DNA of 64,000 nt from Algibacter amylolyticus (GTDB taxonomy: Bacteria; Bacteroidota; Bacteroidia; Flavobacteriales; Flavobacteriaceae), in NCBI RefSeq assembly GCF_014202225.1, contig NZ_JACHGE010000003.1, positions 1-64,000 on the forward strand. Direction: 5' to 3'. The notes under the pieces are model-generated. The model was not told the DNA's origin. It saw only the letters and a list, made by a program, of their open reading frames with translations, and did no database searches. Numbering within the stretch: position 1 is the stretch's first letter; every line of letters starts with the position of its first letter. Positions 3,641-11,092 of this stretch are shown piece after piece. The translations under genes were made by a program, and so were the position numbers.

Positions 3641-5713
3641 ATGAAAAACATAATATTATTAACGTTCCTTGGGTTATCTTGGTGTTCAAGTAATGCGCAA
3701 GTTGGCGTAAATAATGCAAGTCCAAAAGCTTTGTTAGATGTTGAAGCAACAACACCTAATACACCCAATGCTAATGATGGATTATTAATTCCTAGAATAA
3801 ACCAATTTCCGGCTACAAATCCTATTGCAGATCAAAATTCGATGATGGTTTACTTAACCACTAATTTATTTGCAGTTAATATTAACGGTACAGCAAAAGA
3901 TTATACTTCGGGTTTTTATTACTGGGATAATGCACAAACAGATTGGATTCGCTTTCTTCAACAAACAGGTTGGACTATTAATGGAAATGACAATACAGAT
4001 AGCAGTTTAAATTTTTTAGGCACCACGAATAATCAAGATTTAGTTTTTAAACGAAATAATGTTGTTGCAGGTTTGTTACATACTAGCAATACCTCTTTTG
4101 GGGTTAGTAGTTTAGTTGCTAATGCATCTGGCATTAATGGCACTGCTATTGGTGTTAATGCTTTAAGTAGTAATTCTGGCGGGTCTAGCAATACGGCTAT
4201 TGGAAGTAGTGCTTTAGCTGCCAACGTATCAGGCATTAGAAACACTGCTATAGGTCATAATGCCTTACTAAATAATTTAGGAGGACGAAATACCGCCATT
4301 GGATATGGAGCAGGAGATACGAATACTAATGGAGATTTTAACACGTATATTGGAGAGAATGCGGATGCAACAAATAACAATTTACAATCTGCAATTGCAA
4401 TAGGTAATGGGGCTAGAGTAGGTGCTACAGCTACTGTTTCTATTGGTAATAATGCAGAGGCTACAGAGCAAGATGCCATTTCAATAGGTAGAAACGCCGA
4501 TGCCTTTGGAATAAATTCTATTTCAATAGGTCGAAGTACAGGTAGTAATGGTCTAGGTGCCGTTGCCGTTGGAGCTAATAGTGATGCTAGTTCCCAATAT
4601 GGTTCTGCTTATGGGTCGTTTGCTCAAGCCATCGGAACAAGATCTACGGCTTTAGGTTATAGTAGTGATGCTAACGCAACAGATGGCGTGGCAATTGGAA
4701 GTAGTAGTCAAGTTTCAGGATTAAATGGTGTTTCAATTGGATCTTCATCTGAAACTACCGGAACAGATTCTGTTTCCATAGGAAATTCGGCATCTGTAAC
4801 AGCAGGGAATTCTGTTGCCATTGGAAGTTCTACAATTGCATCGGCAGACCGCACAACTAGTGTGGGTGAACAAGCTGTAGCAAATGCGGCGAATGCTTTG
4901 GCCTTTGGAAGTGGAACAGTTGCTTCGGGTGTAAGAAGTTTGTCTTTAGGTAGAATAGCGGAAGCATCTGGAGAAAACTCAAGTGCTGTAGGAGAGAATT
5001 CTATATCTAGTGGGGTGTCCAGTTCTGCATTTGGTAGTAAAGCTGAAGCTACAGCAGATTACAGTTTAGCTTTGGGGTTTTTAGCTCATGCGGCAGACGA
5101 GTCTTCAGTGGTAGTTGGTAGTTATTCAGAAGTAACAGGAGCAAGTTTAAATTCTATTATACTTGGTAATTCATCTCTTATTTCAGGAAGTTCTACAAAT
5201 AGCATCGCAATAGGTAACGATATTACTATTACAGGCTCAAAAACTAATGCTACAGGTGTTGGTTACCAAGCATCGCCAACAGCGTCCAATCAAATAATGT
5301 TGGGTAATGCGGCTGTTACTGAAGTTGTAACATCGGGAGCAGTTAGAGCTAACTCTTTTATATCCAACACTACAACATATCCCGATTATGTTTTTGAGGA
5401 TTATTTTAAAGGTTTCTCTGAAATTAAAGCTGATTATAAGTTTAATACTTTAGAAAAAGCAGAAACTTTTGTTAGTGAAAATGGTCATTTACCGGGTGTA
5501 AAATCATATGCGGAAGTAAAACGCAGTGGGTTTAAATTGGATATTACTGAAGCTACAATAACTAATCTAGAAAAAATTGAAGAGCAGTTTTTGTATATTA
5601 TAGAGCTTAACAAGAAAATAAAATCTCAAGAGCAATTAATTAACTCTCAAAATTCAAAAATTGAATCGCTTGAAGAACGCTTAACCAGAATTGAAAAACT
5701 TCTTGAAAAATAG
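3641..5713 (+). CDS. Secreted YadA-type head-repeat protein with C-terminal coiled coil
   Basis: A 690-residue exported protein with a signal peptide (cleavage after SNAQ, about residue 19). Residues about 20-120 form an N-terminal domain starting VGVNNASPKALLDV, common on Bacteroidetes fibre-like proteins. Residues about 160-560 are a long array of short repeats with core AIG or SIG every 14 residues, as in trimeric autotransporter heads (YadA/Hia). The end carries a degraded endosialidase-chaperone-like stretch (about 575-640) and a coiled coil over the last 45 residues. There is no membrane anchor of the YadA barrel type, no T9SS tail and no lipobox, so how it stays at the surface is not clear. 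Probable role: trimeric fibre or adhesin. Confidence 0.8.
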   Translation: MKNIILLTFLGLSWCSSNAQVGVNNASPKALLDVEATTPNTPNANDGLLIPRINQFPATNPIADQNSMMVYLTTNLFAVNINGTAKDYTSGFYYWDNAQTDWIRFLQQTGWTINGNDNTDSSLNFLGTTNNQDLVFKRNNVVAGLLHTSNTSFGVSSLVANASGINGTAIGVNALSSNSGGSSNTAIGSSALAANVSGIRNTAIGHNALLNNLGGRNTAIGYGAGDTNTNGDFNTYIGENADATNNNLQSAIAIGNGARVGATATVSIGNNAEATEQDAISIGRNADAFGINSISIGRSTGSNGLGAVAVGANSDASSQYGSAYGSFAQAIGTRSTALGYSSDANATDGVAIGSSSQVSGLNGVSIGSSSETTGTDSVSIGNSASVTAGNSVAIGSSTIASADRTTSVGEQAVANAANALAFGSGTVASGVRSLSLGRIAEASGENSSAVGENSISSGVSSSAFGSKAEATADYSLALGFLAHAADESSVVVGSYSEVTGASLNSIILGNSSLISGSSTNSIAIGNDITITGSKTNATGVGYQASPTASNQIMLGNAAVTEVVTSGAVRANSFISNTTTYPDYVFEDYFKGFSEIKADYKFNTLEKAETFVSENGHLPGVKSYAEVKRSGFKLDITEATITNLEKIEEQFLYIIELNKKIKSQEQLINSQNSKIESLEERLTRIEKLLEK

Positions 5714-8331: not shown

Positions 8332-8850
8332 ATGAAAAAATTAGGACCAGTCATTTTCGGATTTATTATTGGAGCAATTTTAACCTATTATTTTTGTCCG
8401 AGACCTCTTGGAGATAAGCCAACTATGGGTGAGGAATATGTAGTGCCAAAAGACACTATTTCGGTAAAGGAAGCTAAATTATTTAGTGCTAATTGGGAAA
8501 AAAATAACGAAACAGAAATAGATTCTACAATTGAAGTGGAGGGCCCAAGAAAGAAAATGCGCTCGGTATGGTGGTCATTAAAAGAAGTAAACCAATATTT
8601 AGCTTATGCTAAAGCGCAATCGGACACCTTAGGATTTAAAATGACAGGTGTGCGAATCTATCTAGGGAACTATGGGGATCGAAAAAAAGGATCTAAAAAG
8701 AACAGAAATACTATGTTTATTGTACCTACAGGTCCAAAATCGACATCTAAAGCTAGTAGTGTAAATATGTTTTTTCCACCTAGTGATCCAGATATTCCTG
8801 TACCGCCTTTAAACGATGGTGGTGGAGGTGATAGTGGTTACCCGAATTAG
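8332..8850 (+). CDS. Membrane-anchored protein of unknown function
   Basis: A 172-residue protein I cannot name. Residues 6-22 form one hydrophobic segment, with Lys at 2-3 and a Cys-Pro just after it, so it is either an uncleaved N-anchored protein facing the periplasm or exported. The middle is a compact polar domain (about 40-130) with the pattern GVRIYLGNYG and TMFIVPTGP. The tail is rich in Pro, Asp and Gly. It is the first of four closely packed genes leading to a histidine kinase, so it may be a periplasmic ligand sensor for that unit; this is inference from position only. Confidence 0.7.
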   Translation: MKKLGPVIFGFIIGAILTYYFCPRPLGDKPTMGEEYVVPKDTISVKEAKLFSANWEKNNETEIDSTIEVEGPRKKMRSVWWSLKEVNQYLAYAKAQSDTLGFKMTGVRIYLGNYGDRKKGSKKNRNTMFIVPTGPKSTSKASSVNMFFPPSDPDIPVPPLNDGGGGDSGYPN

Positions 8851-8860
8851 GCGTTTTTTT

Positions 8861-9580
8861 TTGGAAGAATTTTTATACCAACATAGATGGATTATAACAA
8901 GAGCCGTAGAAATTATTGCGGCTCTTACTGGTATTGTATTTTTTAAGAAATATAAATCTACTAACGCGAAGTATTTTATATATTTTTTAATATACCTATC
9001 TATTTGCGATTTTTTAAATACTTATACCTTGTATACAGGAAAAGGACAGTTTTTTTATTTTTTAAGGGAAACTGTATTTAAATATAATTATTGGTGGTCT
9101 ACTTTGTATTGGAAAATTGGAGCTATTATGTTTTTTGTTTTTTTTTACAATAAAATACTATCCAACAAAAAATTTAAAAACATAATAAAATTTAGTGGCT
9201 TGTTTTTTCTGCTTTTTTCTATTATTTATATTCTTTTAAATTTTGATGATTATTTTGTTAGATTCTTTCCACCAATAAGTATTTTAGGTGCATTTATTAT
9301 ATTTTTATGTACCGTGTTTTACTTTATTGAGGTTCTATTAAGTGATAAGATTTTAGTTTTTTATAAATCATTAAATTTTTACATCAGCTTCGCAATATTT
9401 ATTTGGTGGTTAATTATAACTCCCATTGTGCTGTATGATATATACATGCTTCACAAAGATTTTAATTATATCAAATTAAGATTTTTAATTTACTTATTGG
9501 CTAATATTACTATGTATTCAACATTTACTTTCGCGTTAATTTGGTGCAAACCAGAATTAATAAAAAATGAACTTACATAA
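8861..9580 (+). CDS. Seven-helix membrane protein, first of a tandem pair
   Basis: About 239 residues with seven hydrophobic segments and almost nothing else. The frame is open from an ATG at 8816, which overlaps the previous gene by 35 bases and would add a basic Val-rich leader. I prefer the TTG at 8861, because its product then lines up with the start of the paralogue that follows. Shared marks with that paralogue are FKKY-x-(S/N)T near helix 1, WWLIITPIV and DIY at helix 6, and a helix-7 pattern LxFLxANIxMYS. The stop overlaps the next ATG by one base. I know no name for the family. A sensory or channel role feeding the downstream kinase is plausible. Confidence 0.75.
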   Translation: MEEFLYQHRWIITRAVEIIAALTGIVFFKKYKSTNAKYFIYFLIYLSICDFLNTYTLYTGKGQFFYFLRETVFKYNYWWSTLYWKIGAIMFFVFFYNKILSNKKFKNIIKFSGLFFLLFSIIYILLNFDDYFVRFFPPISILGAFIIFLCTVFYFIEVLLSDKILVFYKSLNFYISFAIFIWWLIITPIVLYDIYMLHKDFNYIKLRFLIYLLANITMYSTFTFALIWCKPELIKNELT

Positions 9581-10281
9581 TGATTGATTTTTTAACGCGT
9601 AATTTTAATTTTATTTCTTATGCGTTGGAGTTTCTTGCCGCATTTGTAGGTTTGCTATGTTTTAAAAAGTATCGAAATACGTCCACACGATATTTTATTT
9701 ATTTTTTGGTTTACATTTTTTTTGTTGAAGTTATTGGAGCCCTGTTAGTTTACGCTCCATTTTTTTTACCCATTCAATTATTAAGAAAAGCGGGTGTTCG
9801 TGTTAATAATTGGTATAATGTGTTATGGCTTTTTGGAAGTATTGTATGTGTAGTTTTCTATTTTCATGCTATTATAAATCGAAAAAAACTTAAGCTTGTA
9901 ATAAGGGTTGTAGGCGTTTTGTTTATAGCAGTTATGCTATCTCATTTCGTATTTTATTATGATGTGTTTTTAAACTCGAGATCTATGTTTTATCAAATAG
10001 CTGGTCTTATAACCACAGTTGTTTGTATTACTACATATTTTATTGAATTAACAAATAGTGATTCTATTCTAAATATGTTTAAAATATTTAGCTTTTACGC
10101 TAGTGTTGGTCTATTTTTATGGTGGTTAATAATAACGCCCGTCATATTTTTTGATATTTATAATACAGAATCCGATCGGGATTTTGTTATTTTAAAAAGA
10201 CTCATTTTTTTATTTGCCAATATATTTATGTATTCTTGTTTTATACTAGGTTTAATAATTTCAAAACCAAATAATGCTTAA
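9580..10281 (+). CDS. Seven-helix membrane protein, second of a tandem pair
   Basis: A 233-residue paralogue of the preceding product, also with seven hydrophobic segments. The clearest conserved block is near residue 180: WWLIITPVIFFDIYN, matching WWLIITPIVLYDIYM upstream. The ATG overlaps the upstream stop (TAATG), and the gene's own end overlaps the histidine kinase start by 8 bases, so translation of all three is probably coupled. The two copies have diverged widely, so the duplication is old and both have been kept. Two different subunits in one complex with the kinase would fit. Function unknown. Confidence 0.78.
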   Translation: MIDFLTRNFNFISYALEFLAAFVGLLCFKKYRNTSTRYFIYFLVYIFFVEVIGALLVYAPFFLPIQLLRKAGVRVNNWYNVLWLFGSIVCVVFYFHAIINRKKLKLVIRVVGVLFIAVMLSHFVFYYDVFLNSRSMFYQIAGLITTVVCITTYFIELTNSDSILNMFKIFSFYASVGLFLWWLIITPVIFFDIYNTESDRDFVILKRLIFLFANIFMYSCFILGLIISKPNNA

Positions 10282-11092
10282 TTTATTTAATTTTTTATTT
10301 CTAATTCAGTCAGCGGTATCTACAGCCTCAGAACGCTATTTATTGGTGTATATGATAATCGTTTTAATTATCATTACATCCTTAGTGATTGTATTTTTTG
10401 TGGTATTCCAGAAGCGAAAGAATAAATTACTTCAGGATAGAATTAAGCAACAACAAGCTTTTGAAGCCGAAATTATACAGGCACAAACTGAGGCTCAAGA
10501 ACAAACTTTAAAAAATATTGGTTGGGAATTGCATGATAATGTGGGGCAGTTATTGTCTTTTGCCAGCATGCAATTGAGTATATTAAAAATGCAAGTAGCT
10601 GATGATGTTAAAGATAAGTTTAAAGACACCTCAGAAGCACTTAGTAATGGTCTAAAAGAAGTTCGTGCACTTTCAAAAACACTTAATAACGATGTTATTT
10701 TAAATATTGGTTTTGAAAAATCCATTACCAATGAGTTGGACCGCATGAAAAAGATGAAGTTTACATCGGCAGAATTAAAAATTATTGGAGATAAAGTACC
10801 TTTCGCTGATCGAAAACATGAAATAATTGTGTTTAGAATACTTCAAGAGTTTTTGTCCAATTCAGTAAAATATTCTGATGCAAAAAATATTGGAATTACT
10901 TTAAATTATAAGCCAGAACGCATCATTATTACTGCAACTGACGATGGTAAAGGTTTTGATATTAAAGAGATTGAACAAGGTTCTGGTTTAATTAATATGA
11001 AAAGTAGAGCGGCGTTAATTCATGCAGATTTCGAATTGAACTCGCAGCCAAATAGTGGTGTTCAATTGGTACTTAACTATCCTTTAAACTAA
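10274..11092 (+). CDS. Sensor histidine kinase, HisKA_3/NarX-LytS-like, without own sensor domain
   Basis: A 272-residue inner-membrane kinase. A single transmembrane helix covers about residues 22-46, followed by a coiled-coil linker. The HisKA_3 dimerisation helix carries WELHDNVGQ with the phospho-acceptor His87. The ATP-binding domain has the N box ending NSVKYS (Asn196) and the G1 box DDGKGF (223-228), plus GSGLINM. There is no periplasmic or PAS domain, so input must come from another protein; the two seven-helix proteins encoded just before it are the obvious candidates. NarL-type response regulators normally partner such kinases, but none lies nearby: the next gene is a convergent aldehyde dehydrogenase 11 bases away. 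Confidence 0.9.
   Translation: MLNLFNFLFLIQSAVSTASERYLLVYMIIVLIIITSLVIVFFVVFQKRKNKLLQDRIKQQQAFEAEIIQAQTEAQEQTLKNIGWELHDNVGQLLSFASMQLSILKMQVADDVKDKFKDTSEALSNGLKEVRALSKTLNNDVILNIGFEKSITNELDRMKKMKFTSAELKIIGDKVPFADRKHEIIVFRILQEFLSNSVKYSDAKNIGITLNYKPERIIITATDDGKGFDIKEIEQGSGLINMKSRAALIHADFELNSQPNSGVQLVLNYPLN

Follow-up and report, generated by a model that had tools for sequence, protein, structure and literature searches.

A conserved gene module of marine flavobacteria in which seven-helix membrane proteins and a one-helix histidine kinase appear to form a split sensor

Four genes lie in tandem on the forward strand of contig NZ_JACHGE010000003.1 of Algibacter amylolyticus, within the 64,000-nucleotide stretch (positions 1 to 64,000) that was analysed here and is referred to as the window. 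We designate them NA, T7a, T7b and HK, and use T7 for the family to which both seven-helix proteins belong.

8332-8850, + strand: NA, a small protein (172 aa) with an N-terminal membrane anchor and a conserved G/P-rich C-terminal tail
8861-9580, + strand: T7a, a seven-helix membrane protein, the paralogue of the variable clade, 239 aa from a TTG start inferred from homologues
9580-10281, + strand: T7b, a seven-helix paralogue of 233 aa belonging to a separate, kinase-proximal clade, with 34% identity to T7a
10274-11092, + strand: HK, a one-helix histidine kinase of 272 aa with a coiled linker, HisKA_3 and HATPase_c domains and no sensor domain

The longest open reading frame for T7a spans 8816-9580, and its ATG at 8816 sits 35 bases within the NA gene. 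Because homologues align from the TTG at 8861 and not from this ATG, T7a probably corresponds to 8861-9580 (239 aa), without overlap with NA. The initial annotation of this DNA, made from the sequence alone, had described T7a and T7b as paralogues sharing a block at helix 6, with a one-base overlap between their genes and an eight-base overlap between T7b and HK. These observations were borne out: the overlaps lie at base 9580 and at 10274-10281, the block reads WWLIITP[IV]..[DF]IY in both proteins, and the two align with 34% identity (E 9.5e-38), T7b being the sole other T7 match to T7a in the genome. Elsewhere in the window, a protein of 690 aa is encoded at 3641-5713; it carries YadA-head repeats (Pfam E 3e-21), and its C-terminal region is predicted to be coiled.

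By its domain content, HK is a two-component histidine kinase of the HisKA_3 type, with Pfam matches to HisKA_3 (E 1.6e-10) and HATPase_c (E 3.2e-9) and with H-, N- and G-box sequences that, as read from the translation, are intact. Its best NCBIfam profile is that of UhpB (E 6.8e-28), a match far below the cut-off. There is one clear hydrophobic segment, and the stretch ahead of it is short, leaving no room for an extracytoplasmic domain; the linker matched no sensor family in Pfam or NCBIfam. The Pfam domains and the single hydrophobic segment thus agree with the earlier description of a kinase that has one helix and catalytic domains and is devoid of a sensor. HK shares with intramembrane-sensing kinases the defining trait of this group, the lack of an extracytoplasmic domain, and since HK itself lacks a sensor, control of its activity must act through the single helix or the cytoplasmic part. 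A role in a defence system was also considered and was rejected, as PADLOC returned just a weak match to the kinase (E 0.002, 15 bits).

Neither NA nor T7 matched any Pfam, NCBIfam or PADLOC family above cut-off, and for T7 this includes all transporter and enzyme families. The structural model of T7 consists of seven long helices (mean pLDDT 88), and all 31 diverse relatives aligned keep the helix-6 proline. The alternating mean charge of the loops in these 31 sequences predicts an outside N-terminus and an inside C-terminus, a topology which is also that of GPCRs and rhodopsins. In structural searches with VIA-align, the best 50 entries were all GPCRs or the GPCR-like domain of LYCHOS, with Z up to 12.8 over 205 residues and an rmsd of 4.0, where Z values below about 13 are not decisive for helical bundles; the best Foldseek match had an E of 0.035, and rhodopsins were among the matches. 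By contrast with this resemblance in fold, the T7 profile (A3) gave no sequence match to PDB chains at E up to 10, and none of the 31 members matched a Pfam GPCR family. The modelled arrangement of T7 can be described as roughly receptor-shaped, GPCR- or rhodopsin-like without detectable sequence homology. A stretch in helix 7, N-I-x-M-Y, resembles the NPxxY of GPCRs, with N in 17 and Y in 22 of the 31 rows of the wider family.

Known seven-helix groups were considered as possible homes for T7. The presence of rhodopsins among the Foldseek matches and the identical topology might point to a light-sensing relative of microbial rhodopsins, a reading to which we assign a negligible probability. 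T7 matches none of the PDB chains in sequence, and this candidate was rejected upon finding no conserved retinal-binding lysine in helix 7 (positions 205-225, 31 rows). Equal helix number and partnership with a histidine kinase would also be expected if T7 were an unfused member of 7TMR-DISM or HisKA_7TM. However, none of 31 T7 members matches either Pfam family, profile-profile comparison with hhalign, using alignments of the relatives, gave probabilities of just 0.8% (7TMR-DISM) and 0.3% (HisKA_7TM, PF16927), and the frames carrying these domains in Bacteroidia span about 319-1107 aa, against about 200-310 aa for those around T7 matches, among which no fusion of T7 to a kinase was seen. Membership of T7 in these families, ruled out on the Pfam and profile-profile comparisons, is thus highly improbable. 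Both families resemble T7 in providing seven helices as kinase input, but they have no sequence relation to it, and every example found in this class lies in a longer protein, apparently as a fusion with output domains; for 7TMR-DISM in Bacteroidia, this matches the statement of the initial annotation that such inputs are usually fused.

A single-sequence search of 299 Flavobacteriaceae genomes found T7 in 139, and a search of the same genomes for HK at E 1e-30 found it in 151. Both proteins were present in 136 genomes, T7 only in 3, HK only in 15 and neither in 145, a co-occurrence with a Fisher p of about 6e-63, not corrected for kinship. When a T7 profile was used, T7 was recovered in 14 of the 15 HK-only genomes, the exception being an assembly of 670 contigs with 8% contamination. 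T7 thus seldom occurs in the absence of the kinase (both in 136 genomes, T7 alone in 3), whereas the initial annotation had named a wide occurrence of T7 without HK as evidence against its own proposal of a sensory link.

Gene neighbourhoods were read in 94 T7-centred loci (the window included), in 20 loci centred on a related response regulator and in 20 loci from T7 matches in other families of Bacteroidia. Among the 131 loci with T7, a count in which a few genomes enter twice, a one-helix kinase was the next gene or the next but one after T7 in 128, and NA was located upstream of T7 in 119. With over 100 loci showing it, the order NA-T7-HK is not due to chance, and the kinase does not partner a different neighbouring sensor. 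Neither of the two conditions that the initial annotation had set for its refutation was thus found. Overlap or a distance of at most 20 bases was found for 92% of T7-HK pairs, with overlaps exaggerated by the use of the longest frames. One T7 copy is present in 102 loci and two to five in 29, five being reached in 1 locus. The core consists of a single T7 for each kinase, tandem duplication is variable, and the full module, including the response regulator (RR), is NA-T7(1-5)-HK-RR. In genome G034, the kinase is on a separate contig from NA-T7, next to the gene for the aldehyde dehydrogenase that is encoded after HK in the window, indicating that a rearrangement split it from NA-T7 and that both were kept. 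Other arrangements include five tandem T7 genes followed by one kinase and one regulator (L183:5519-10604, G206 C8), a second T7 standing alone (G049), an array of T7-like genes (G483) and NA-T7 pairs without an adjoining kinase (L221, L296 and L297, from G032, G120 and G212).

NA belongs to the gene set on account of its position. Its model has a pLDDT of 71 and no convincing PDB match. Its N-termini are heterogeneous: 73 are TM-anchored, 17 are lipobox-like, and the other 46, about one third of the proteins, start without a hydrophobic segment and seem to lack an N-terminal signal, which is difficult to reconcile with a single location. One operon encodes two NA proteins, one without an N-terminal anchor (L033:4816-5166) and one with it (L033:6024-6512).

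In a tree of 176 T7 proteins, T7b falls into a clade of ten members (SH-aLRT 99) restricted to operons with at least two T7 genes, and its members are kinase-proximal in nine of ten cases, which, as the species are related, do not represent nine independent events. In the alignment, this clade is marked by a one-residue deletion after an invariant tryptophan. T7a falls instead in a large clade that also contains single-copy T7 proteins. Because the tree puts them in different clades, T7a and T7b are, as far as phylogeny can tell, two separated lineages and not the product of a recent duplication, and the pattern suggests that they differ in role.

The two paralogues also differ in their recent history. 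In the comparison with Algibacter pectinivorans (L032), dS was 0.65 for NA, 1.29 for T7a, 0.08 for T7b and 0.76 for HK, against 0.20-0.32 for the downstream genes and 0.23 for the Rce1-like gene just upstream. Amino acid identity was 63% for T7a, 97% for T7b and 91% for NA. In a sliding comparison, identity fell to 0.62-0.73 across most of T7a and stood at 0.94-0.99 within T7b; the changes are abrupt and lie close to the ends of the T7a gene, and this mosaic looks like allele exchange by recombination within the cassette. When 23 pairs of loci were compared, conservation was usually lowest for NA and T7 and highest for HK and RR, as would be expected of input and output components, respectively. 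For 53 single-copy loci, the distances of T7 and HK remained correlated beyond those of PanB and RluA, two neighbouring housekeeping proteins (partial r 0.59), while T7-NA and NA-HK distances gave a partial r of 0.25 each. Linkage alone poorly explains the T7-HK correlation, because T7 is linked as closely to NA as to HK; the correlation could also reflect co-transfer of linked genes.

Rapid change in NA and T7, together with an apparent swap of T7a between close species, raises the question of a peptide-based system. In agr-like cell-cell signalling, a precursor peptide is processed, exported and bound by a receptor; NA would then be the ligand precursor or carrier, T7 the receptor and HK/RR the read-out. 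The small size of NA, the anchor or lipoprotein-like start that it shows in many loci and its conserved G/P-rich tail would suit such a role. However, in a specificity peptide the tail is where conservation would be least expected, NA has diverged just moderately at the locus where T7a looks swapped (91% versus 63% identity), T7-NA distances are less tightly linked than those of T7 and HK, and the operon contains no processing or export gene. We consider this explanation quite unlikely.

A LuxR-type response regulator with Response_reg and GerE domains (Pfam) follows the kinase in 60 of the 131 loci, and its gene is absent from the operon in the clade of the window. In a search for a relocated cognate regulator in 20 genomes of this clade, the nearest proteins had about 30% identity, one orphan excepted. 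The orphan is a LuxR-type regulator in the genome of the window (C7:23313-23936; L135:6311-6946, G000 C7) with no adjoining kinase, showing 48% identity to the operon regulator of L039 and up to 60% to second-module-type regulators. It belongs to a related subfamily and is a candidate partner of HK.

As regulators often adjoin their targets, T7 might alternatively be an effector, transporter or membrane enzyme under the control of HK/RR, with the adjacency being that of regulator and target. T7 has no known ligand or family, and NA-T7 is kept without an adjoining kinase in three genomes, both of which could be understood in this way. Yet HK would then be left without any other sensor, T7 stays with HK even in the clade devoid of the regulator, and the T7 and HK genes are co-encoded and mostly overlapping rather than divergent. 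Seven helices in a GPCR/rhodopsin-like arrangement, with no above-cut-off match to a transporter or enzyme family, also speak for a receptor, and we judge it unlikely that T7 is a target of the kinase.

Since HK lacks a sensor and T7 is its near-invariant neighbour, T7 is the obvious input. In our assessment, the products of the four genes are likely to form a split histidine kinase of the intramembrane-sensing kind, which dedicated T7 receptors would drive in trans. Linkage and co-occurrence support what the initial annotation had proposed, namely that the seven-helix proteins form the sensory part of a split sensor kinase; the physical complex of T7 and HK, the direction of signalling, the roles of NA and T7b and the ligand are elements that we infer. 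In such a system, the T7 proteins would be seven-helix receptors of the inner membrane, with the N-terminus outside and the C-terminus inside. T7 alone or the T7a/T7b pair, assisted by NA as an accessory partner, would sense a signal within or outside the membrane, which would pass to the single transmembrane helix of HK by helix-helix contact; the coiled linker and HisKA_3/HATPase_c would then alter kinase activity. In complete modules, the phosphate would be transferred to the LuxR-type response regulator whose gene comes next in the operon, and in the clade of the window another regulator would have to serve as output. T7b, as an old, specialized kinase-proximal paralogue, may be the constant coupling subunit, and T7a the variable, ligand-defining one. 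A further step would be to view the system as GPCR-like in trans, in which T7 and its small partner couple non-covalently to the one-helix kinase with an exchangeable T7a and a constant T7b. Given that it draws on a fold similarity of uncertain weight in predicted structures, we regard this extension as tentative and rather doubtful.

Several known systems share part of this organization. The UhpB/UhpC/UhpA system, reportedly described by Island and Kadner in 1993 (a study cited in [PMC12691602]), combines a HisKA_3 kinase, a separate membrane-protein sensor and a LuxR-type regulator, as NA-T7-HK-RR would do. Unlike T7, UhpC is a transporter homologue and, unlike HK, UhpB has its own multi-helix input domain.

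T7 as the input of HK would work on the principle known from intramembrane-sensing kinases, for example BceS, whose separate sensor is the ABC transporter BceAB [PMC8534201]. Like HK, BceS has no extracytoplasmic domain and needs a separate membrane protein to sense [PMC8534201], but it has two helices instead of one, and its partner is an ABC transporter, whereas T7 is an unnamed family present in 1-5 copies and accompanied by NA. BtsS, a LytS-type kinase and seven-helix pyruvate receptor, resembles T7 in having seven helices and an outside N-terminus, and it binds its ligand in the membrane domain [PMC10653868]; in contrast with T7/HK, receptor and kinase are fused in a single protein, and the kinase is from another family. 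For NA, comparisons are offered by the accessory lipoprotein of QseG-QseE [PMC12691602] and by the overlapping, fast-evolving sensor genes of VtrA/VtrC [PMC9214523], both belonging to multi-part sensory systems. Their proteins are unrelated to those of the module, neither includes a seven-helix receptor, and VtrA/VtrC has no kinase.

Separate membrane sensors for kinases and seven-helix inputs fused to kinases are thus already known. In the open-licence literature, we found no description of the NA-T7-HK module, nor of a dedicated, unfused seven-helix family of variable copy number serving a one-helix kinase, and the module is apparently undescribed. It is present in about half of the sampled Flavobacteriaceae genomes, and its two main input proteins have no Pfam or NCBIfam family name. 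If the proposed mechanism is true, the intramembrane-sensing kinases, best known for sensing through transporters, would gain a class of dedicated seven-helix sensors that act in trans. With a receptor copy number that varies between kinases, and a swapped T7a next to a near-identical T7b, the module provides a natural system for studying receptor integration and diversification, and the small size of the gene set makes the question directly testable in a laboratory host. If the GPCR-like reading also holds, one kinase could read several, fast-changing ligands. In marine flavobacteria, the module is conserved, and receptor and kinase appear to be separate parts of one sensing device.
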